Of a DNA stretch of 64,000 nt, positions 5,141-63,950 are shown piece by piece. Origin of the DNA: Ovis canadensis (taxonomy: Eukaryota > Chordata > Mammalia > Artiodactyla > Bovidae); contig NC_091255.1 in assembly GCF_042477335.2 (NCBI RefSeq), positions 17,834,501-17,898,500 of the forward strand, in the 5' to 3' direction. Numbering within the stretch: the first letter of the stretch is position 1; the number at the start of each line of letters is the position of its first letter. Below the pieces are notes generated by a model that was not told the origin of the DNA, ran no database searches, and worked only from the letters and a program-made list of their open reading frames with translations. The position numbers and the translations under genes are program-made.

Positions 5141-8100
5141 CTGGAACAGGCACATGCGTCAGAGGGGGGCCTCTCAAGAGTCCTACAGATTTAGGGAAGT
5201 GCCCTCCCCAATCCCTTCAGTCAGGCCCTTGGTAGCCCTGGGGTGTGATGGGGTTCCTGGGTAGAACCATTAATCCACCAATCCAGGGTCCAGATGTCCC
5301 AGGGCCAGGGATATTCCTATTCCCAAACCAAGAGAGACTGAGGTTTATGATTAAATAGGGGTCCTCTCAGGCTGGCGACCCCTACCACCCCATACTACCC
5401 TCACCTCCTCATCTTTCTCTCGGATCAGCCTCTCAGTTTCTGGATCTGTCCCTGGTGGGACGGCAGGAAGGGGGAAGTCGGTACCACTCTCTAGAGTCAG
5501 TTTGCTACAGGGAAGAGGGAAAGGAGGTTGGTAAGGCTAGGGGAACCCCAGTACCTACTTGGACTGAGCCCAGAGCCTGCGGAACAAAGGAAGGGCTTGG
5601 TCTCAACCGCAGAGGCGCTTGGGACCCCACCCCTGCCAGCTCCATCCTGGCCTTTGGCCATACTTGCGATTCCGTTCTTTCACCACCAGGCGGGTCATGC
5701 TCTGGATGCACTGTGCCCGGTAGTTCTCATAATGTGTCTCCCGCGTCACGTCTTTCAGGTCCTGCATGTGAGTACGCACCAGCATTGTCCTCAGCTTCAC
5801 AAAGTCGCAGTGCCCTGGGTTTTCCACTGCACAGCAAGGCTAGGGGTCAGCCAGGGCCATGGGTAGAGGAGACCCGTTGAGGGCAAGGAGATACCCTGGT
5901 CACAAGCTCAGAGCTTTACCTTCCACGATGCCCCAGGGGTAGAGCCGGCCCCGAACTCGACGCCCTCTGGCCTCTACCACAGTGTTGCTGCCAATGACAG
6001 CAAATGGGATGCTTTCCTGGAAGAAGTTAGGGGTGTCTCTCAACACCCCCATTCTCACCTGCTCCTTTGCTCCTGTATCTTCATCTTCCTCTGCTTCGTT
6101 CTAGGAAACCAGGGTCCTCTTCCACCCCAAGAGCCCCTCCCCATTACATAGAATTCTATTCCCTCTTCCACCCAGAAGAAACAAGCTGGGAAAGGGATCC
6201 CTGGGGTGGCCCCACCTTTAGGGCCAGGTCCTGTGATTTGAAGTCCTCATCCTCATCAGAGTCACAGTCTGGGAACTGGTAGACCTTGATTCCAAAGTGC
6301 TCAATCTCCTCCCGGATCTGGCAAACACACGAGGGGCTCATGGTTCTGGGGGGACTCCGACTTTTCCAGAAGCCCACCTGCTCCCCTGCCCCCCAGCTGC
6401 CCTCACTTTGCGTTTCTTGCGCTCCACTTCAGGGGGTGTCAGTGTGTCCGCCTTGGCCAAGATAGGCACGATGTTGACCCGCTGATGCAGGGCCTTCATG
6501 AATTCAACATCCAGTGGCCGGAGCCTGGGGAACGGGAGCCTGTGACCAGCTGCTAGTGGCAGCCCTGCCCCGGGTGCTCCTGGCCTGCCCCCTCGGCAGC
6601 ACCTGGTGGGGCCAGGAGCCCCAGGCTCGGACCGTACCCGTGGCCGAAGGGCGAGATGAAGTACAGGCAGCAGTGCACCCTGTTGTCTTGAATGTTCTTG
6701 CGGTTCAGGCCACTCTCATCTCGGAAATACTGCTCGAACTGCTGGTCGATGTATTCGGCCACAGGCTTCCAGCTGGGGCAGGGAACACAAGCAGAGAAAC
6801 TGTGCGAGTGAGGGCTGCCTAGGGAGCTCTGGGGCTACAAGGAGCCCACGCCCTGGGCAGTCTTTTCAAGACTTGGCTCTTCCCTGACTTGCTTTACCGC
6901 ATCTTCAGGGAGGTACCTGGGTGGGTCACGGTACATCTCAAACATCCTAATAGAAAATCAGACTAGGCACATGGGCAGAGGTCATTAAACCCTTAGTGTG
7001 ATGAGAGGAAGAGAGCCCAGGTGACCAAACAAAGCAGTAAGACTAGCAAGATGCGGTGAAAACCAACTGGAGGCCAGGGCAGCCCTAAGTCAGGTTCGCA
7101 GTTCAGCCTCAGGGCCTTTATTCGGGTGGGTCCAGCCTCTCCTCCACCTCTCCAAGCCCACTCCGTCCTTCAAAGCCATGTCCAAGAACCATCTCTTCCA
7201 CAAAGATTCCTGTGACTACACCAAGGCACACTGCTTTCCCTTCCCTTCACCACACATGAAGGTCATATACATATATGGTATACATCATCCATACGTATAT
7301 TCAGTATATATATTCAAGAACCTCAGTTGTCAGGTCTCTTGCTCTGCTGTTACTGAGTTTTGTCCTGATAGATGCCCTGATAGGTAGACATTATATGTAT
7401 CATTGTTCTCATCTTATACATGAAGAAGTTAAATCCAGAGCAGCTAAGAGACTTAATGCAGATCATTTTGGCCAGCAAATTCTCTACCCATCCAAGTGCC
7501 TGGGCTCTGACTCCCAGTTCAGTGTGTCTGCCACTACGCTAACCCATTTACTAACCTGAGTTTTTGCCTGATTGACACACACGTCAGAGACCTGCCCCCT
7601 CCCCTCCCCCACTGCCACTGGACTGTAAGCTTCCCAGTGACAAGGATTATTCATACTTGTTCTGTATCCTTTAAAATGTCCAGCATGGGCTGGACACCTA
7701 ATCTGTGCTCAGTAAATTCCTGCTGGCTGAGTAAATGGGCACATGCGCAGGTACACCGTAAACTGGGAGGTGCCAGGCGAGGGGAATTATTACTACAGTG
7801 TGGAATGTCAGAGGAAGTAAGTAGACTGATTGAAGGAGGAAGCGATACTTGCTAAAGCAGGAAACAGGTGTTGGTTGGGGCTAGAATTTCAAGGCAAGCC
7901 CAGTTGGCTGAGACATAGTCCTAGATTAGGAAGGGTGATGACATGGAGGCCACCTTAGTCCAGCAGGAGTATGTACGGAGACCATGCACTACGTACTAGC
8001 CCAGCGCTATGGCAAGAACGTACGAAGTGGTCCTCCCCTCAAGGCTTCGATCACGAAGCTGAAGATGAACCAGCGTGCTGAGCCAAGGTCTCATGTTGTA

Positions 8101-11100
8101 ATGATAAAGCATGTAAGGCGGGATCAGAGCACAGAAGGATCTGTAAGATCCTGATCAGTCTGGGAGGCAACCATCCAGGGTCAGCTTCCTGGGCGTGTGA
8201 CCTGTGCAGTCACAAGCGGGCCCTGCGCTCAGAGGGCCCATACCTGGTTTACTCTCTGCTGTAGCCATCTTGAAATTCTTTATCATTTTGAACAAGGGAC
8301 CCCACACTTTTTTTTTGCACTGATCCTGCAATTATCGTCTTTAAATTCGTGAGTGTAGTGTACACAGCCCTTTCCAGTTTTTAATGCACATTTACATGCA
8401 TCTTTCTGGGATGATTTGTAGATCAACCGGTAGAGCCAGCATTTTCCAGCTGAAGAAATGGGAATGCAGTTATTTGCTCAAGATCACGCAGTTACTAAAT
8501 GCCAAATCAGGATCTGAATTCTCAGTTCAGGAGTCTCAGCCCCACCCTACCTAATGTTCTTAACAAAGGCACCACCACCTTTTCCCCCGTTTCTATCCCC
8601 GTTCTCCTCTCATCTACTCCCTTAGGTCTGACCACTATCTAAGCATCTTTCTAGTTCATGAAAAAAAAAAAAATGTCAGGGATGACTGGGGAGGTGGGGA
8701 GGTGTTGTTTAGTCACTAAGTCGTATCCGACTGTTTTGAGAACCCATAGACTTAGCCCGCCAGGCTCCTCTATCCATGGGATTTTCCAGGCAAGAATACT
8801 GGAGTGGGTTGCCATCCCTACCCAGAGATCGAACCCGCATCTCCTGAACTGGCAGGTAGATTCTTTACCACTGAGACACCAGGGAAGCTTGACGGAGGGG
8901 TGGGGAGTGGCGAGTAGCCACTTTTCTTTTGGCACGTAGCCCAGAGGGTGCTTGGAGTTTACGCGCGGTTCCCCCCACACTTTCCCTTTGCCTCTTCTTT
9001 CTCACCTTCCCCCACCCCTCCAGGCACTCCCACCCCTTTAATAACTTGCTTGTAGCACCTAAAACGTTGCTGGTGAAAGGAGTAGATGGAGGGAGGGGGG
9101 CCGTTATTGAGCACCTGCTCTATGTCAGGTCCTTTGCTACATGTTTTCACATGTTTGATTCTTGAGGCTCCTCCCTCAAAAGAAGGGGTGCCCTCACCCC
9201 TATTCTAGAACTGTAGGTCAGAGTCAAAGGAACACTAGAAGTCATCTATACCAAGGCTGTCCCTCTCACTTGACAGAGGAGACAGCTGTCCAGTAAGGGG
9301 CAGGGGCACACTCGGGCACACAGCCCTGCGTCCTGACATCGGGGGTGTGTCTGCACCTCTGTGTGCGTGCGCAGGGAATGGGCGGGCTGGGCGCAGGGTC
9401 TGTGCTCGGTCAGACCTACCACTCTGTGTTGTTGACGGCATCCCCAAAACCTGGTGTGTCCACAATGGTGAGCCGCAGCTTCACGCCCTTCTCTTCTATG
9501 TCCACGGCGTGCTTAGTGATCTCCACCGTCTGCATGATACGCTCTGGAGAAGGGGGAAACTGAGGCCGGGGCCGGGGCAAGGACATGGCCCATCCCAACC
9601 AGCCCTGCTGCCCAGGCTGCCTCACCCTCCCTGCCCCCTCCCCGCCCCCTGGGGCTGCCGGGGGCCTGTCTGTTCTCTGGGAACCAGCGAAGAGCACATT
9701 TCCCAACACAGGAAATGCCGGTGGCTGTTGGCTCCGGCCCCAGCCTCTTCTCTGCCCCGGCCTCTTTTCTCGGATTCCTGGAATCCTTTGGGGGGTCAGA
9801 GAGGATTCTGGCCCCTGCCCTGCTTCAGCACCCAAGTCTTTAGGGAGCTGGCTGGTGGGCTGCCAGCCTGGACAGCCCTCCGGAGAGACATGGCAGGCTC
9901 TCTAGGAAGCCACAGCTTCCTGCATCCCCCAGACCCCGAGTGAGCTCCATTTCTCAGGTCAGCTCTGCCCGCCTGTCCTCACGTTCCTTCCCTTACCTTC
10001 TGCACTGAGGAGCTTCCGGTCCCGGTACAGATCTGTGAGGAAGAGGCTGTTGACCAGCGTGGACTTCCCCAGGCCCGACTCTCCTGACGGGGGAGACAGG
10101 ACAGAGGCACCAAGTCACAGCGGTCACCAAGAGGCCACCCCACTGGGCAGAGTGTGTGGGGGACCTTCTTGCTTATCTCATTGGGAAGAGACTAACCCAA
10201 ACACAGCACAACTGGAAGCAAGCAGAGATGAGAGCTCATCCAGCCAGTGAGGCCCAGAGAGGATAAGGGATTCCTCAGGGTCACACAGCAAAAAGCAAAT
10301 GTTAGGAACCTGAGGGTTAAGGGTTCTCTGGACCTTGTCACTGACCCCTCCCCCACAACACATAGGATAAGGACTTTGGATAGGATACGGATTTGGGGCC
10401 ACCTACAGCTTCTGGCTCTTCTGCAAAAAGGCACAGCCACTTGCTGCTTTCTCCTGCCCTGGCCATCCCCCAGTGGCTCAGACGGTAAAGAAGCCGCCTG
10501 CAATGCAGGAGACCTGGGTTCCATCCCTGGGTCAGGAAGATCCCCTGGAGAAGGAAATGGCAACCCATTCCAATGTTCTTGCCCAGAGAATCCCATGGAC
10601 AGAGAAGCCTAGCGAGTTACGGTCCATGGGGTCACAAAGAGTCGGACACGACTGAGCAACTAACACCCATACTTCCCCCCTCCACACAGACCATCCCCAG
10701 CTGAAACGCCCCTTGCCCAGCTCTGCCCGGCCCCTGCTCTACCTGCCACCATGAGGGTAAAGTCAAAGCCTTTCTTCACAGACTTCCGGTGGACTTGATT
10801 GGGGAGGGTCGCAAAGCCCACGTACTCCTTGTCATCCTAGAGGATGATGAGAAAGCAGAGTGCATTACGGCAGAGGCAGAAGGACCCCGGGACCCAACGC
10901 CAGCCTTCTCCCCGCCTCTTGGGTCTTTGCCCAGCCTTCCAGGATCACTGCCACACTCCTCTGAGGCCCCAGGTGGGGCCACCAGCTGGGCTCCTGTCCC
11001 TGCTGACACTGTCGGGTTCCAATGCATGGGGGGCGCGGGGGTGACCCCACAGAGCTGGGGCCAACACAGGACAGAGCACGTCTCCAGCCACGTGTGGATG

Positions 11101-13635
11101 CACGCACACACACACACATGCACACACGCACACAGGCACACGCACACACTTCTGGGGCTCCCTCAGCTCCCTCCCCAGGTCCTCCTGCATCAGCCCACGG
11201 CACAGACGGGGCTGGAGGCTCTACCTCGGAGGAGTCATAGGGATCGAGCTTGCCCCACGGGCTGCGGGGCCGGGCTGAGGGGCTGAGGGGGGCTGAGGCA
11301 GAGAAGTACTGCTGGCTGTCAGAGGGCTGGGGCCACGAGGGGGATTTGAACTCCAGGTCATCCTGGCAGAGGTCTGAAGCCTGGGGCCTCGGCTCCTGGA
11401 TTTGGGGCCTAGGCACCAAGGTCTTGGCCTCTGGTGGGTGGTAGGTCTCGCTTCCTGGGAAATCCGTCACGAACTTGTTCAGTTCTGCGTCATCCGCGTC
11501 CTCCAGAAAGCGCTTGATCTGAGGGTCAGGGGCGGGGTGGGGTAGGCGGGTCGGTGGCAGGAAGGGAAGAAGGAAGGAGCAAGACAAGAGAAGGCGAGAG
11601 GGAGAGAGGAAAGCACGTGTGGTTAGAAGGGAAAGGAGCTGCACAGGCGGCCAAGCCAGAGGAAGCGCTCGCCACCCTCCCCTGCTCACAGGCCTCCCGG
11701 CCCAAGGGTCCGGGACAGCAGGAGAGACCCCAGGGAGGCAGCGGCAGCCCCCGGCGCCCCAGCAGCCGCTCTGGGGACCCAGCAGCTCCGGTCTCCTTGC
11801 TCCCTCGCTACAGGGTGCTGGTCGAGGCTGCCCCTCCACGCCAGGGCCAGGACTGCCCTAGAGGCCAGGAAGCCAGGCCGAATGAGCGGAGCAGACAGAG
11901 GCATTAGAGCGGAGAGGAGTACGTGGCTCAGGACGGAAGGAGGGTGCAGACCGTCAGGACGGGTAGGGGCGGGAGGCGGGAGGGAGCCCGGGCGGGGAGA
12001 AAGGAGCCTCCAGCCCCGGGCGACTCAGGAGCCAGCAGGGGGCTCCTCACCTCCGGCCGCTGCAGCTCTGAGCTCCGGGACCGGGAGGGACCGGGAGCCG
12101 ACTCTCCCGGAGGTGTTCACTCCGGGAGCGCAGAGCAGCTGACCTGAGCCCCCTGATTCCACACCCTGAGCCTGGGTTCCAGGGGCGAAGGGGAAACGTG
12201 CCAGGGATGCTCGCGAGGGACCGAGTGAGGGAGGGTGGGAGGACACTGCAGAAAGCCCCCAGCCGTGAGGGTTGTAGAGGCGGAGGCACCACTGGCTGCG
12301 CCCTGCCCCCTGCCCCGAGCTAGGCTTCAGCTGGCAGTATTGGAAGGGGTCTGGCCTCGACATTGAAGCACATGGAGGGTGGGCAGACGGTGGCTGGCTC
12401 CTCTGCGGAGACCTGTTCCCCCACCATCTCCAGCTGGGAAGACAGGCCACGTCCCCCTTACTCTGACCCTCAGTTCTAGACCCTGAAGCTTCCTCTCTCC
12501 TTTGGGGGCCGGCCCCCTTCGTGGAGTGCCTGGCGGTGCTGGGCTCAGCTCTGCCTTACAATACCCACGTGCCATCCCCAGACAATGGACAAGGGCTGGC
12601 TTCACAGGCTGACTCACCCCCTGGGAATTGGCCAAGCTAGTGGGGGCTACCCCAGACCACTGTGGAGTCCCAGACAGGGGAGATAAGGCAGCCACCGTCT
12701 TCAGCAGGTTCCCAGCTACAGCGGGAAGAACGGAGGAATGCAGTCCTATGCATTGCCAGCTTTCTGCAGAGGGAAGGGACTAGAAGGGGGCTAGAGGGGA
12801 AAGCTGCCTAAGAGCTACTTCTGGGCTATAGCCTCTCAAGTGCCCCTGCCAGCTTAGAGCCACAGTCTCCAGGGCTTGCCTGGACAGGAAACGGGGCGCT
12901 TAGCCTGAAACTGGAACCAGTGTGTGGGGGCCAAGTGGCCAGAAGAGGCTGTCCTGAGGCAGGCCTGACCCAGCTGGCCTTTTCTCACCCACAGTATCTT
13001 TGGGGGCCGGTGGGGTGACCATTCATTCCGGTTTATGTTTGCTGTTCTAGCAGAATTGCCCCTTTCTACTCTTAAAAGTGTCCCAGCTCAGACGATTAAT
13101 TATACAGCAACGGGGAACGGATGGGGGTGGGAGGTGGGTGGAGTGTGTGTGACAGGTCTTGTTTTCTGGCAGCCCAGGAGTCTGGGGAATTTGGGGAAAT
13201 CCTGTCCCTCTGCACAACCCCACAGGAACCCAGAGTCCGTCTCGGGGGCAGACTGAGGGTGGGAGAGAGGGGACATTCTCCGCCTGGTTTCACCAGGAGC
13301 ACTGAGCCAGAGGGGCAGCAGCGAAGGGAGGAGGGAAGGCCCTGCCGGAGACCCCCAGCCTCCTGCAAACCTTCCAGGAGAGCCGCCAGCACCACTCTTC
13401 CTCCAGCGGGCACGGGAGGGACCCACAGGAGCTCCAACCAAGGGGTCAGGACCCCAGGGACCTCATCGGCCCCCGGCTCTGCCACGGAGCCAATCCTTCT
13501 CTGCCTTTGAGCCCCGATCCAGCCAACACAAGGGAGAAGACGAGGCAGGTCCACCCTTTCCCAGAGCAGCCTTACCCCAGCTTCAGCCCTCTCCTCGGGG
13601 ACAGAACTGCCTTGCCGTCCCAGGACACGGTCCAT
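5081..13635 (-). CDS. SEPTIN4: SEPTIN4 septin GTPase, complete (isoform 1-type)
   Basis: Twelve exons on the minus strand join in phase: 13635-13576, 11518-11225, 10836-10743, 10083-9997, 9543-9420, 6772-6638, 6524-6407, 6317-6216, 6016-5920, 5826-5664, 5504-5405, 5140-5081. They total 1434 nt, 477 residues plus stop, against 478 in human isoform 1 as I recall it. The protein has a variable proline-rich N-terminus, P-loop [13 protein letters not shown] switch II, AKAD G4 motif, the septin-specific element around LYPWG, and a short coiled coil. Septins bind GTP and polymerise into hetero-oligomeric filaments at the membrane cortex. SEPTIN4 is needed for the sperm annulus and works in brain. 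All introns are GT-AG. The start MDRV has G at -3 and +4. Two other N-termini and one alternative C-terminus are listed separately. Confidence 0.96.
5405..5504 (-). CDS. SEPTIN4: SEPTIN4 exon, start of C-terminal coiled coil
   Basis: This 100-bp exon runs from [17 protein letters not shown] to LIREKDEE. The acceptor is CCCTGTAG and the donor GTGAGG. The linker leaves the GTPase domain and starts the coiled coil. Confidence 0.95.
5664..5826 (-). CDS. SEPTIN4: SEPTIN4 exon, end of GTPase domain
   Basis: This 163-bp exon encodes [20 protein letters not shown] followed by the [15 protein letters not shown] stretch, a nearly invariant septin signature at the end of the septin unique element. The donor is GTATGG after ERNR. 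Confidence 0.95.
5920..6016 (-). CDS. SEPTIN4: SEPTIN4 exon with septin-specific LYPWG element
   Basis: This 97-bp exon encodes [20 protein letters not shown] and then [12 protein letters not shown]. The glycine-arginine and tryptophan residues contact the nucleotide and the neighbouring subunit at the G-interface in known septins. Confidence 0.95.
6216..6317 (-). CDS. SEPTIN4: SEPTIN4 exon with acidic loop
   Basis: This 102-bp exon is in phase 0 at both ends. It encodes [20 protein letters not shown] followed by [14 protein letters not shown]. The acidic run is typical of the SEPTIN1/2/4/5 group. Confidence 0.95.
6407..6524 (-). CDS. SEPTIN4: SEPTIN4 exon with G4 (AKAD) motif
   Basis: This 118-bp exon encodes [16 protein letters not shown] and then [22 protein letters not shown] is the guanine-specificity motif. 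When this exon is skipped by retention of the following upstream intron, the ARTS tail is read instead. Confidence 0.95.
6553..6637 (-). CDS. SEPTIN4: ARTS-type alternative C-terminus (retained intron)
   Basis: Reading through the donor at 6637 keeps the frame open for exactly 27 codons after ...SPFGHG. They begin [11 protein letters not shown] and end GQGCH, with a stop at 6555-6553. Human ARTS, an intron-retention product of SEPTIN4, has a unique 27-residue tail of closely similar wording as I remember it. With the ATG-only first exon the product would be 273 residues (human 274). ARTS is mitochondrial, binds and antagonises XIAP, and promotes apoptosis in germ and stem cells. Whether this transcript is made here cannot be read from DNA. 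Confidence 0.75.
6638..6772 (-). CDS. SEPTIN4: SEPTIN4 exon, central GTPase domain
   Basis: This 135-bp exon encodes [20 protein letters not shown] then [20 protein letters not shown] and PFGHG. These are classic septin stretches between G3 and G4. The donor GTACGG is the one whose retention gives the ARTS form. Confidence 0.95.
6773..9419 (-). other. SEPTIN4: Large SEPTIN4 intron
   Basis: A 2.6-kb intron between the switch II exon and the next exon. It holds two MIR-like remnants (near 7390-7560 and 8410-8520), a poly(A) tract near 8660, a minus-strand Bov-tA SINE and another MIR-like stretch near 9090-9180. No additional exon was found. Confidence 0.7.
8702..8890 (-). repeat. Bov-tA SINE
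   Basis: Typical ruminant Bov-tA in reverse orientation: AGTCACTAAGTCGTATCCGA, then GGCTCCTCTATCCATGGGA, ending ACCAGGGAAGCTT. It lies in a SEPTIN4 intron. Confidence 0.9.
9420..9543 (-). CDS. SEPTIN4: SEPTIN4 exon with switch II (DTPGFGD)
   Basis: This 124-bp exon encodes [20 protein letters not shown] then [20 protein letters not shown]. It holds switch I, with the threonines of the QTVEIT region, and the DTPG G3 motif. Confidence 0.95.
9997..10083 (-). CDS. SEPTIN4: SEPTIN4 exon with P-loop
   Basis: This 87-bp exon encodes [20 protein letters not shown] then RDRKLLSAE. The Walker A lysine and serine are intact, so GTP binding should be preserved. Confidence 0.95.
10465..10668 (+). repeat. 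Bov-tA SINE
   Basis: Full-type Bov-tA in forward orientation, from CCAGTGGCTCAGACGGTAAA through the Bov-A part (GGACAGAGAAGCC, GTCGGACACGACTGAGCAAC). It lies in the intron just before the P-loop exon. Confidence 0.9.
10743..10836 (-). CDS. SEPTIN4: SEPTIN4 exon leading into the GTPase domain
   Basis: This 94-bp exon encodes [20 protein letters not shown] then [11 protein letters not shown]. The basic KSVKKGF segment is the polybasic phosphoinositide-binding stretch before the P-loop. Confidence 0.95.
11096..11150. repeat. CA-rich microsatellite
   Basis: Impure (CA)n tract with interspersed G and T inside a SEPTIN4 intron, likely length-polymorphic. Confidence 0.85.
11225..11518 (-). CDS. 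SEPTIN4: SEPTIN4 common N-terminal exon
   Basis: This 294-bp exon (98 codons, phase 0 at both ends) starts [20 protein letters not shown] and ends [13 protein letters not shown]. The rest is proline/glutamine-rich and probably disordered. All alternative first exons join here at the codon ATC. The open frame runs on into both introns, but the splice sites (CCCTCAG acceptor, GTAGAG donor) mark the limits. Confidence 0.94.
11519..13575 (-). other. SEPTIN4: SEPTIN4 intron between alternative first exon and common exon
   Basis: Two kilobases of GC-rich unique sequence with CpG-rich patches around 11700-12120. No SINE or further exon was recognised. Confidence 0.6.
13576..13635 (-). CDS. SEPTIN4: SEPTIN4 first coding exon, isoform 1 type
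   Basis: Encodes [20 protein letters not shown] and ends with the donor GTAAGG. Human isoform 1 begins with a nearly identical 20 residues. It joins the common exon in phase 0. No ATG occurs in the open frame directly upstream, up to 13704. The surrounding sequence is not a CpG island, unlike the other first exon, so it is probably a tissue-restricted promoter. Confidence 0.92.
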
Positions 13636-16383: not shown

Positions 16384-16660
16384 CATGGCTGCAGCCCGGG
16401 CCGGGCCGGCTCCGCCTGGACAGCGCCCGAGCGACCCGCGGCCGGAGCTGCGCGCCGACCTCGCCGCACCGCCGGCCCCCTCCCGCCACCCCGAGAGCGG
16501 ACAGTCTGGGGGCGGGGCCCGCGGCTGGGGCGGGGCGGGGCGGCCCCGGGGCGGGGCCTGCACCTTCGCGGCGCGCGGGCTCGCGCGGGCTGAGCCGGGG
16601 GCCGCCGGCCTGTGTGTGGGCCTTGCAGCTCGCGACCCCCGGAGGCAGGGTGCGGAGAGG
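16040..16660 (-). promoter_or_regulatory. SEPTIN4: CpG-island promoter of SEPTIN4
   Basis: Dense CpG island with GC boxes (GGGGCGGGGCC-type repeats near 16510-16560) surrounding the ATG-ending first exon. No TATA box is evident. It should drive the shorter SEPTIN4 and ARTS forms. Confidence 0.75.
16384..16386 (-). CDS. SEPTIN4: SEPTIN4 alternative first exon contributing only ATG
   Basis: The minus strand reads GGCTGCAGCC then ATG followed at once by the donor GTAAGG (16383-16378). Spliced to 11518 it gives M-IKRFLED, exactly the start of the human isoform 2 form as I recall it, and a 458-residue protein. The upstream part of this exon is 5' UTR of unknown length within the CpG island. Confidence 0.8.
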
Positions 16661-26445: not shown

Positions 26446-28134
26446 TTAGTTTTGGCACTGGCGGGAGGGCAGCTCTGAGGCCCAGAAAGAGGAGGGGGGA
26501 CTTTCTCCCACCCCAGCGTCCCACCTCACTAAATTGGGGCTGCACCTGGGCAGTCTGCTTCTGAACATACCCATGAAGAAAACACTAAACCTTTGAGTGG
26601 GATGTCTGGAGGTGTGCTTGGGGGCCTGTGGCACTTCCCTCAATGGTGACCGGCTCGGAGACTCCTTTGGTGATGATAGTGGTGATGGACTTGCCTTCTC
26701 TCTCTGGAACATCAGATCCTCACAGAAAGGGCTGGTTTCCATTTCAAAAAAAGGCAGTGAAGGGTCTGGGGGAGGAGGGGACTTGGGCTCGAAATCAGGT
26801 GTTGTCAGCTGCCTGTTGGGCATTTCACCTTCAGGGCTGAGTAAGGCCCACCATGTGGAGTCTGGCCCATATCTTGGTAAGCACCGAGGGGGCAAGGGCC
26901 GAGGGGTCAGTTCCAGCTCTACGTGGTCAGAGTGCTTTCTAGAAGAGGGCTCTGGAGGCCTAAGTGTGGGTCGTGGGAACTCGTAGATACTGTCTGAGGG
27001 TTTTGTGGTATATTGCTTATATTCGGGCTCCGGAGTGACAAAGACAGAGGATTTGCAGGGGCTCTCAGACGTTCTGTAGGAAGCTAACTGTGCCCCGCGG
27101 GAGATGGTGACCCTGCGGCCACCCTCACTCTCTCCGCGTGTTGAGGGCTTCATGCTGGGCTCCACTTCTGATGGTATTAAAACCTTTGGGGAGACCTTGA
27201 TTTCGTTGTACACAGAGGGCCTGTGGCCAGGCTCAGGCTCAGGGCGCATAGAAGCCTTGTGTCCACTGTTCAAATCTTTAAGGACAGAGAGTGTGAGGGA
27301 CGATTCCAAGTTCACACTTCTACGCAAGGCCTTAGGTTCTGCATAAATTGAGTTCTGACGGCCCATTTCAGATTCTGGCCCAGGAATTCTTCTCTGGGTT
27401 GACCGAGAGTCTGGATAGATGCGGTTGCCGCCACGTTCTGGGCTAGGGGGTCTCCTTGGAGATCTGATATCCCCAGCAGTCACACTCTTTAGAATGGGCT
27501 CAGTTTGGACTGCTTCATCCTTTGGGCAAATCAAAGGCCTCCGGGGAACTCTGACCCCTTGTGGGTATTGGACCTTGGAGGGTGGCTCGTCTTCTACGAG
27601 TAAGAAGTCATCCTTCTGGTCGACAAAACTCAACCGGCGAGAAGATTTGGTCTCTGGAATTAACGAGAAACGATTACTGATGTCACGCCCTGGCCTGATC
27701 TCAACCCCTCTTCTAGTTGCTTCCTCTCTGGACGGACTGACATTCCGCTGCATCTGACCGGTGTAGAGCGTCGACTCGCCCTGAGTCAGCTTTCGAGGAG
27801 GCGAGGCCCGGCGGGATGCATCAGTTCTGGGTCGGGTCTCGGTTCGAGGGTTGGGTGCTCCAGAGTGGCCGGGCCCTGACTGAGGGGAGCTAGAGCGAAA
27901 GTAGTCCGATGATAAATGGACAGCAGTGGTGTGCCCAGCTTCTGATCTTCGATGGCCTATCGGCATGGTGGAGCCTGGGCCACTCCGCTGGTTTGAGGAG
28001 ACGAGGTACCCCTGTCCCCGCTGAGGGGTCATGCTAGCAACCTCGGCCCCTTTCTGTGTTGAAACTGCTACCCTGGACCCAGTTTTATTTGTCTTGACCA
28101 CATGATATGTTGTGCCTCTTTGCGTAGAGCCCAT
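26446..28134 (-). CDS. C17orf47: C17orf47-like protein, single long exon
   Basis: An uninterrupted 562-codon frame starts MGSTQRGTTYHVVKTNKTGS, with an in-frame TAA six bases upstream of the ATG and G at +4. The protein is rich in Ser, Pro, Arg and Glu, lacks membrane segments or a signal peptide, and contains loose repeated phrases such as SPRRPPSPERGG, RRPLICPKDE and RPEPEPGHRPSVYNE, so it is probably intrinsically disordered. The family has no known function that I can name. Position between SEPTIN4 and TEX14 on the same strand, length (human about 570) and wording fit human C17orf47. The last 27-40 codons may be intron: donors GTGAGG (26529) and GTATGT (26570) lie inside the frame. The first is phase 0, compatible with the common SEPTIN4 exon. 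Confidence 0.82.
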   Translation of the reverse strand: MGSTQRGTTYHVVKTNKTGSRVAVSTQKGAEVASMTPQRGQGYLVSSNQRSGPGSTMPIGHRRSEAGHTTAVHLSSDYFRSSSPQSGPGHSGAPNPRTETRPRTDASRRASPPRKLTQGESTLYTGQMQRNVSPSREEATRRGVEIRPGRDISNRFSLIPETKSSRRLSFVDQKDDFLLVEDEPPSKVQYPQGVRVPRRPLICPKDEAVQTEPILKSVTAGDIRSPRRPPSPERGGNRIYPDSRSTQRRIPGPESEMGRQNSIYAEPKALRRSVNLESSLTLSVLKDLNSGHKASMRPEPEPGHRPSVYNEIKVSPKVLIPSEVEPSMKPSTRGESEGGRRVTISRGAQLASYRTSESPCKSSVFVTPEPEYKQYTTKPSDSIYEFPRPTLRPPEPSSRKHSDHVELELTPRPLPPRCLPRYGPDSTWWALLSPEGEMPNRQLTTPDFEPKSPPPPDPSLPFFEMETSPFCEDLMFQREKASPSPLSSPKESPSRSPLREVPQAPKHTSRHPTQRFSVFFMGMFRSRLPRCSPNLVRWDAGVGESPPSSFWASELPSRQCQN

Positions 28135-28997
28135 ATTTTACCGGTTGGCTTGTATTCAGGGTCCTAACAAAGCCTGAATATTTATCCTCAGTTTTAAAAG
28201 CTGCTGTTCTTGCACTCCCACAAAAGTGGCTGTTGTTCTCCAAGTGTCTCTCCTAGTCCCCTTAGCTACCTGCCTGGTGATGTCATAAAGGAAGGAGCCT
28301 CCTATTAAATATTCTGGCATATAGACACAGTTCTTCAGACTATCAAGCAGAAACAGCAACTGTGGATTGTGTTTCGTGTTGACACCACCAAAGCTTTGAC
28401 CAAGTTCTTAGCAAAACCGGGATTTCCTGGTGTAGAAGGAAGGCTCTAGATCCTCCCTTACTCTCCCCAGGTTCTAGGAACTCTCAGAGACTCATCCAGA
28501 GAGAAGGAACCAGTTTGAATATCCTACTAAGGCAGGGCTCCTCAAATCAATCCTACTGCGTTAGCCCCAATTTTAGTAAGATGCAAAGTACAAAACTGTC
28601 CCAATTTGGTTTGGAGCTGCACTGAATATAAGTCACAAAATAGAATCCCACCTTCCTACAGATTTTGTGGGTGGTTTGGTTGGCCATGGGGTGAAAATCC
28701 AGGTTGCTCAAATCATAACTTCTCACACGTTCTTGGCCCAGGAGTACGTGTAGGATTGTAGAAGGAGTCAGTCATTGGTTTCAATCACAAATGGCTATTT
28801 GTGCACCTTGGACAAGTTACTTGACTCGCCTGAGACTTGGCTTCTTTATCCGGAAACCACTGCTTGGTAGATGCATGTCACACAATAAATGGTACTTTCT
28901 CACAAGCCCTTCCTCTCAGCTATTCTGATGAGCTAGACTCCAGTTCTTTCTTCATTTGAAGAAGGACTTTCCACCTTGGATGACCATTTATTCATTC

Positions 28998-62048: not shown

Positions 62049-63950
62049 AACCATTTGAATGCAGAGTTCCAAAGAATAGCAAGCAGAGATAAGAAAGCCT
62101 TCCTCAGTTTGGGAACACAGGTAAGAATTAAAGATTTTAAAATTAAAAAAAAAAAAAAAAGAAAGCCTTCCTCAGCGATCAATGCAAAGAAACAGAGTAA
62201 AACAACAGAATAGGAAAGACTAGAGATCTCTTCAAGTAAATTAGAGACACCAAGGGAACATTTCATGCAAAGATGAACACAGTGAAGGACAGAAATGGTA
62301 TGGAACTAACAGAAGCAGAAGATATTAAGAAGAGGTGACAAGAATACACCAAAAGCTGTACAAAAAAGATCTTCACAACCCAGACAGTCACGATGGTGCA
62401 ATCACTCACCTAGAGCCAGACATCGTGGAATGCGCAATCAAGTGGGTCTTAGGAAGCATCACTACGCACAAAGCTAGTGGAGGTGATGGAATTCCAGTTG
62501 AGCTATTTCAAATCCTCAAAGATGATGCTATGAAAATGCTACACTCAATATGCCAGCAAATTTGGAAAATTCAACAGTGGCCACAGGACTGGAAAAGGTC
62601 AGTTTTCATTCCAATCCCAAAGAAAGACATTGCCAAAGAATGCTCAAACTACCGCACAATTGCACGCACCTCACACTAGCAAAGTAATGCTCAAAATTCT
62701 CCAAGCCAGGCTTCAGCAATACATGAACCATGAACTTTCAGATGTTCAAGCTGGTTTTAGAAAAGGCAGAGGAACCAGAGATCAAATTGCCAACATCCAA
62801 TGGATCACTGAAAAAGCAAGAGAGTTCCAGAAAAACATCTATTTCTGCTTTATTGACTATGCCAAAGCCTTTGACTGTGTGGATAATAATAAACTGCAGG
62901 AAATTCTTCAAGAGATGGGAATACCAGACCACCTGACCTGCCTCCTGAGAAATCTGTATGCAGGTCAAGAAGCAACAGTTAGTACCAGACGTGGAACAAC
63001 AGACTGGTTCCAAATCGGGAAAGGAGTACGTCAAGGCTGTATATTGTCACCCTGCTTATTTAACTTATATGCAAAGCACATCATGTGAAATGCCGAACTG
63101 GATGAAGCACCAGCCGGAATCAAGATTGCTGGGAGAAATATGAATAACCTCAGATATGCAGATGACACCACCCTTAGGGCAGAAAGCAAAGAACTAAAAA
63201 GCCTCTTGATGAAAGTGAGAGAGGACAGTGAAAACGTTGGCTTAAAACTCAACATTCAGAAAACTAAGATTATGGCATCTGGTCCTATCACTTCATGGCA
63301 AATAGACGGGGAAACAGTGGAAACAGTGACAGACTTTATTTTGGGGGGGCCCCCAAATCACTGCAGATGGTGACTGCAGTCATGAAATTAAAAGATGCTT
63401 GCTTCCTGGAAGAAAAGTTATGACCAACCTAGACAGCATATTAAAAAGCAGAGACATTACTTTGCTGACAAAGGTCTATCTAGTCAAAGCTATGGTTTTT
63501 CCAATAGTCCAGTAGTTGTGTATGGATGTGAAAGTTGGACTATAAAGAAAGCTGAGCACCAAAGAATTGATGCTTTTGAACTGTGGTGTGGGAGGAGACT
63601 CTTGAGAGTCCCTTGGTGAGCAAGGAAGTCCAACCAGTCAATCCTAAAGGAAATCATTCCTGAATATTCATTGGAAGGACTGATGCTGAGGCTGAAACTC
63701 TAGGACTTTGGCCACCTGCTACGAAGAGCTGACTCACTACAACAGACCCTGATGCTGGGAAAGATTGAAGGATGGAGGAAAAGGGGATGACAGAGGATGA
63801 GATGGTTGGATGGCATCACCAACTCGATGGACATGAGTCTGAGCAAGCTCCAGGAGTTGGTGATGGACAGGGAGGCCTGGCGTGCTGCAGTCCGTGGAGT
63901 CGCAAGGAGTCAGACATGACTGAGTGACTGAACTGAACTGAACTGAAGAC
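62049..63950 (+). mobile_element. BovB (RTE-type) LINE, 5'-truncated and broken
   Basis: Sense-strand BovB carrying most of the reverse transcriptase: KASGGDGIPVELFQILKDDA, RKGRGTRDQIANIQWITEKA, FIDYAKAFDCVD, RQGCILSPCLFNLY and the catalytic NLRYADDTT. It ends with TGAACTGAACTGAACTGAA. The frame is broken near 62670 (frameshift), at 63086 (TGA) and around the G/C run at 63345. The 5' UTR and endonuclease domain are missing, so it cannot move by itself. BovB is known for horizontal spread between reptiles and ruminants. It lies in a TEX14 intron, opposite to the gene. Confidence 0.93.
62108..62158 (+). mobile_element. Micro-retroinsertion inside the BovB
   Basis: About 50 bases, starting TTTGGGAACACAGGTAAGAA and ending in a run of A. 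They sit between exact copies of AAGAAAGCCTTCCTCAG (62091-62107 and 62159-62175). BovB text continues uninterrupted if one copy and the insert are removed. Confidence 0.85.

Follow-up and report, generated by a model that had tools for sequence, protein, structure and literature searches.

The window analysed here, the whole stretch of 64,000 nucleotides from Ovis canadensis (contig NC_091255.1, positions 17,834,501 to 17,898,500), carries the septin gene SEPTIN4 on its minus strand. The features of this gene that matter for the ARTS (Sept4_i2) isoform are given in the order of transcription, with coordinates of the window.

16384..16386, minus strand: candidate ARTS start codon, at the putative end of an alternative first exon (ATG/GTAAGG, donor score 5.21)
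13576..13635, minus strand: 20 codons of the first exon that the long isoform uses instead, placed here by means of the human peptide
11225..11518, minus strand: SEPTIN4 exon 2, starting IKRFLED
10743..10836, minus strand: SEPTIN4 exon 3
9997..10083, minus strand: SEPTIN4 exon 4, with the P-loop GESGLGKS, whose first Gly codon is split with exon 3
9420..9543, minus strand: SEPTIN4 exon 5, matched by the published human ARTS forward primer at 20/20 bases (9450-9469)
6638..6772, minus strand: SEPTIN4 exon 6, ending YFISPFGHG, common to ARTS and full-length SEPTIN4
6525..6637, minus strand: phase-2 intron of 113 nt, donor CGG/GTACGG, acceptor CCCCAG
6556..6636, minus strand: 27-codon ARTS-type tail, read if the intron is retained; 22/27 residues as in human ARTS 248-274 (PMC3176765, Table 1)
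6553..6555, minus strand: TAG closing the tail, aligned with the TAG of two published ARTS primers, one human (reverse) and one mouse (forward)
6536..6552, minus strand: the 17 non-coding bases of the intron that follow the stop; 15 of them agree with the human primer sequence
6407..6524, minus strand: SEPTIN4 exon 7, the next exon if the intron is spliced, untranslated if it is retained

Base 6637 finishes a Gly codon split between exon 6 and the intron (GG/G), and with the 27 open codons and the TAG that follow, the limits 6553-6637 proposed in a preliminary description of this DNA are exact. The same description held the human tail to be 27 residues long and similar in wording, which is borne out by the 22 of 27 positions identical to the published peptide. 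This identity exceeds chance because the two tails are orthologous. The five differences, R253G, V261A, K262E, T264A and Q269P from human to sheep, each need one substitution, in the first or second base of the codon. The tail ends in QEHPGQGCH where human ARTS has QEHQGQGCH, thus keeping H268 and C273 with a Pro at 269; it contains neither Lys nor Arg. In the human protein, BIR3 binding is reported to reside in the last nine residues; it became undetectable with a peptide carrying H268A or C273A and persisted with Q269A, and C273 is also needed for the disulfide dimer (PMC3176765). Drug development directed at XIAP builds on ARTS (PMC7316745, PMC7140716). A search of the same sheep genome for BIR domains gave 16 matches. 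At the level of sequence, the sheep tail is a real and intact ARTS orthologue, and as far as sequence goes it adds a ruminant to the species with this isoform. The preliminary description mentioned authors who question how widely ARTS is conserved in mammals; a paper of that kind, or one on ARTS in ruminants, was not among the literature matches listed, a weak negative. Of the five papers listed for words of the tail DNA, only PMC7904775 concerns ARTS by its title.

Relatives of the tail were sought elsewhere. A pattern search had no match in viral contigs; in a collection of genome contigs it gave 464 stretches, among which tblastn found no relative. In the PDB, a sequence search gave 43 distinct sequences, all of them aligned to the exon portion of the query and none beyond its position 48 of 72; the tail is therefore without a solved relative there. 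A DNA query of 301 bases matched six places in the genome; the five that are not the locus itself cover the exon and extend past it by no more than 14 nt on the upstream side and 5 nt on the intron side, and at that sensitivity a retrocopy containing the intron was not seen. RNA structure in the intron was considered and rejected, as its folding energy is not unusual (z -0.84; 46 of 200 shuffles equalled or exceeded its stability). Introns 7 and 9 of SEPTIN4 are short too, with 89 and 93 nt.

ARTS has a start of its own and lacks the 20 residues with which the long isoform begins. Upstream, exon 2 can be joined either to the long-isoform exon (13635-13576) or to the candidate exon ending at 16384. 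Two ATG sites followed by GT with a donor score above 3 occur on the minus strand between 11.5 and 30 kb, and 16386-16384 is the CpG-rich one, with CpG observed/expected values of 0.77 in the 0.5-kb bin on one side and 0.79 in that on the other. The resulting ARTS-like model has 273 residues and no internal stop, contains GESGLGKS and a truncated GTPase domain and ends in FGHG plus the tail; it is one residue shorter than human ARTS (274 residues), through an N-terminal deletion. The spliced SEPTIN4 frame is intact through exon 10. The human ARTS promoter fragment is reported to be a TATA-less CpG island that includes the start codon (PMC4366172), and a CpG-rich candidate first exon is in line with it; this exon may be used in sheep as well. 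Three other frames were observed in the window. A stretch of 42 nt (6100-6059, minus strand) lies between SEPTIN4 exons 8 and 9, is flanked by cctag and gtgag and is in frame with both exons; it is a candidate cassette exon that would add 14 residues. Upstream of SEPTIN4, a stop-to-stop frame of 563 codons (NMGSTQRGTTYHVV...) occupies 26446-28137 of the minus strand and presumably corresponds to the C17orf47-type reading frame next to human SEPTIN4. A frame of 184 codons at 62534-63088 of the plus strand resembles a fragment of a LINE reverse transcriptase.

How the intron comes to be readable is best understood from its donor and from the other septins of the genome. In a phase-2 intron, bases 2-4 constitute the first new codon; donors beginning with GTAA, GTAG or GTGA consequently impose an immediate stop, and GTAC encodes Tyr. 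The frame can be open in SEPTIN4 because a phase-2 intron is combined here with the unusual donor GTAC. Since residue 248 of the published human peptide is Tyr, the human donor must likewise be GTAC or GTAT, we infer. A search for the Septin domain gave at least 59 matches, 30 of which were made into loci; intron-bearing septins lie on contigs 1, 3, 4, 5, 6, 11, 17, 24 and 28, a distribution that fits the numbering of sheep chromosomes. Eight septin genes have an exon ending at the position of SEPT4 exon 6, a count that omits L009-L013, whose exon runs past this place, and the broken loci L006, L007, L008 and L025; paralogue names are inferred from sequence and chromosomal place. After that exon, the frame stays open for 27 codons in SEPT4 (donor GTACGG), 25 in SEPT1 (L003 and L017; GTCTGT), 25 in SEPT3 (L019; GTACGT) and 79 in SEPT9 (L005; GTACGT), and for 0 codons in SEPT2 (GTGAGC), SEPT5 (GTAGGT), SEPT7 (GTAAGT) and SEPT12 (GTGAGG). 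Four of the eight, SEPT4 included, therefore have at least 25 open codons in this intron. From these donors a rule can be drawn: a canonical donor in a phase-2 intron excludes a read-through tail, and tails arise only where the donor is non-canonical. The donor that permits the tail should also weaken splicing. With a simple score built on donor base frequencies, the SEPT4 donor reaches 2.12 (maximum 8.64), which is weak, yet only the fourth weakest of the 11 SEPT4 donors scored. Counter to a reading specific to ARTS, SEPT3 and SEPT9 have the same GTAC. SEPT1, SEPT3 and SEPT9 are not known to give a retained-intron protein. Among the broken loci, a septin copy with stops lies on contig 21 at about 18.33 Mb (L006, L008, L025; most SEPT2-like by eye); on contig 12 at 60.60 Mb, L007 covers positions 1-268 of the 280 of the Septin profile in one stretch with three in-frame stops and is probably a processed pseudogene.

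The preliminary description had reasoned from the preserved frame to a functional isoform. Of 20000 mononucleotide shuffles, 12882 had at least 27 open codons and 207 exactly 27; among as many dinucleotide shuffles (20000), the counts were 11230 and 204. Reading through ten SEPT4 exon ends, that of the tail included, gave open stretches of 159, 119, 26, 11, 0, 27, 22, 19, 5 and 19 codons, the last read across 300 nt, the end of that intron being unmapped. An open frame of such length is thus ordinary in a SEPTIN4 intron. The shuffles, these read-throughs and the comparison of the eight septins led us to reject the open frame as evidence for function, and neither its length nor its openness is an argument for it. 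A stop shared at a shared place requires only that no indel and no new stop have arisen since the common ancestor. The reasoning from frame to function is consequently weaker than claimed; what stands of it is an orthologous tail with H268 and C273 in place.

Substitutions were compared with human, represented by the published ARTS 248-274 peptide and published primers. Relative to human, the tail requires at least 5 changes in 81 bases, a lower bound as silent changes are unseen. Neutral evolution was simulated by substitutions only, starting from the sheep tail, and a simulated tail passed when its frame and stop survived together with 22 or more of the 27 residues. Of 20000 tails per divergence, 13991 passed at 0.06, 7570 at 0.10 and 2128 at 0.15; at 0.20, 0.25, 0.28 and 0.32, the number fell to 350, 34, 5 and 0. 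The neutral divergence between human and sheep is in the order of 0.25, in the upper part of the simulated range, and the tail is therefore probably constrained. A human ARTS reverse primer (PMC7904775) takes in the stop together with the 17 intron bases beyond it, and 18 of its 20 positions agree with the window. Two changes in the 17 post-stop bases do not differ from the minimum of 5 in 81 (Fisher p 0.60), and these non-coding bases may be constrained as well. Under neutrality, the probability of no more than two changes in 17 bases is 0.31 at a divergence of 0.20, 0.16 at 0.25 and 0.08 at 0.30; so few bases, close to the acceptor, are too few to prove constraint. Six published human promoter and intron primers were considered as a measure of the local neutral rate. 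RE1F (19/19) and RE3R (17/21) match at plausible places; the best match of RE1R (17/22) was dropped because its orientation is incompatible with RE1F, and no clear match was obtained for RE2F, RE2R and RE3F (best 15/22, 16/22 and 14/19). The matched bases are too few to provide such a rate.

Such constraint might act on the nucleotides instead of on the peptide. The intron would then be conserved for splicing, the tail peptide being a passenger and ruminants having no functional ARTS, a possibility we take seriously while placing it on the unlikely side. The preliminary description had stated that nothing else would hold the intron to its length and frame. This is not secured: an intron of only 113 nt has little room outside its donor, branch point, pyrimidine tract and enhancers, and much of it may serve splicing. 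Identity to human of 15 of the 17 bases beyond the stop points in the same direction, as do a human primer placed where intron 5 ends, with 17 of 21 bases matching, and the open frames found in three of seven paralogues. On the other hand, the 17-nt control is small, compatible with neutrality at a divergence of 0.25 and, being near the acceptor, a poor yardstick, and both residues critical for BIR3 in the published experiments are preserved.

Mouse Sept4 knockouts are the main in vivo support for ARTS. The published mouse ARTS forward primer is identical to 6553-6572 at 18 of 20 bases, and the reverse primer from the same paper at 19 of 19 in exon 7 (PMC7904775). Read in frame, the forward primer gives GQGYH and a stop, hence Tyr and not Cys at 273 if the primer is true to the mouse genome; on the thin basis of one primer in one paper, mouse may lack C273. 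Should Tyr273 be true, a residue that human ARTS needs would be absent in the knockout species and present in a ruminant. It could then be proposed that the XIAP-binding tail was selected in primates and ruminants and that the mouse lineage lost the cysteine needed for BIR3, a scenario we consider doubtful. Against a functional loss in mouse count the report that p53 activity raises murine ARTS at both the mRNA and the protein level (PMC7904775), the staining of mouse crypts, and not of Sept4-null tissue, by an ARTS-specific antibody (PMC6214937) and the suppression of null phenotypes by XIAP loss, as cited in PMC3176765.

A further alternative concerns the fate of the messenger. The exon 7-8 junction follows the TAG at a distance of 146 nt (6553 to 6407), and the retained-intron mRNA is therefore a predicted target of nonsense-mediated decay. 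The model has two more junctions downstream, 8-9 and 9-10, and exon 10 is itself followed by a donor. Regulated retention of a short, GC-rich intron (GC 0.73) with a weak donor would in this case lower SEPTIN4 output through a premature stop, and the tail protein would hardly accumulate. We judge this quite improbable, given that human ARTS protein has been reported by several groups (PMC7904775, PMC3392246, PMC10952901) and that the human tail peptide binds BIR3 (PMC3176765). That the frame is a chance opening unrelated to ARTS is scarcely credible: about half of the shuffles leave a frame this long open, but the orthologous human intron encodes 22 of the 27 residues and ends the tail at the same stop, and this orthology already contradicts the idea.

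The interpretation we favour, with slightly better than even confidence, is that the ruminant tail and that of ARTS (Sept4_i2) are orthologues. Retention of the short GC-rich intron after exon 6 would let translation continue for 27 codons and then stop. The product would be a 273-residue protein with a truncated GTPase domain and a tail offering H268 and C273 for binding to XIAP-BIR3. Most likely, the tail is an inherited by-product of the non-canonical donor, already recruited by the ancestor that primates and ruminants share. The alternative start, the retention of the intron in the animal, the production of the protein and its binding to XIAP are all predictions of this model. Two leads prove useful beyond it, namely the donor rule and the contrast between the binding residues kept in sheep and a possible Cys273Tyr in mouse.

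Among known systems, human ARTS is the closest: it shares with the sheep tail the gene, the intron position, the length of 27 residues, 22 of these residues, H268, C273 and the stop, as far as the published peptide and primers extend. SEPT1, SEPT3 and SEPT9 resemble SEPT4 in the position and phase of the intron and in a frame open for 25, 25 and 79 codons, respectively, and SEPT3 and SEPT9 also in a GTAC donor start with Tyr as first residue, whereas their read-through peptides are unrelated to the SEPT4 tail. The published mouse ARTS transcript has its stop at the same position as in sheep (PMC7904775). A ruminant with both critical residues, set against the Cys273Tyr suggested by the mouse primer, makes the equivalence of the human and mouse tails testable.
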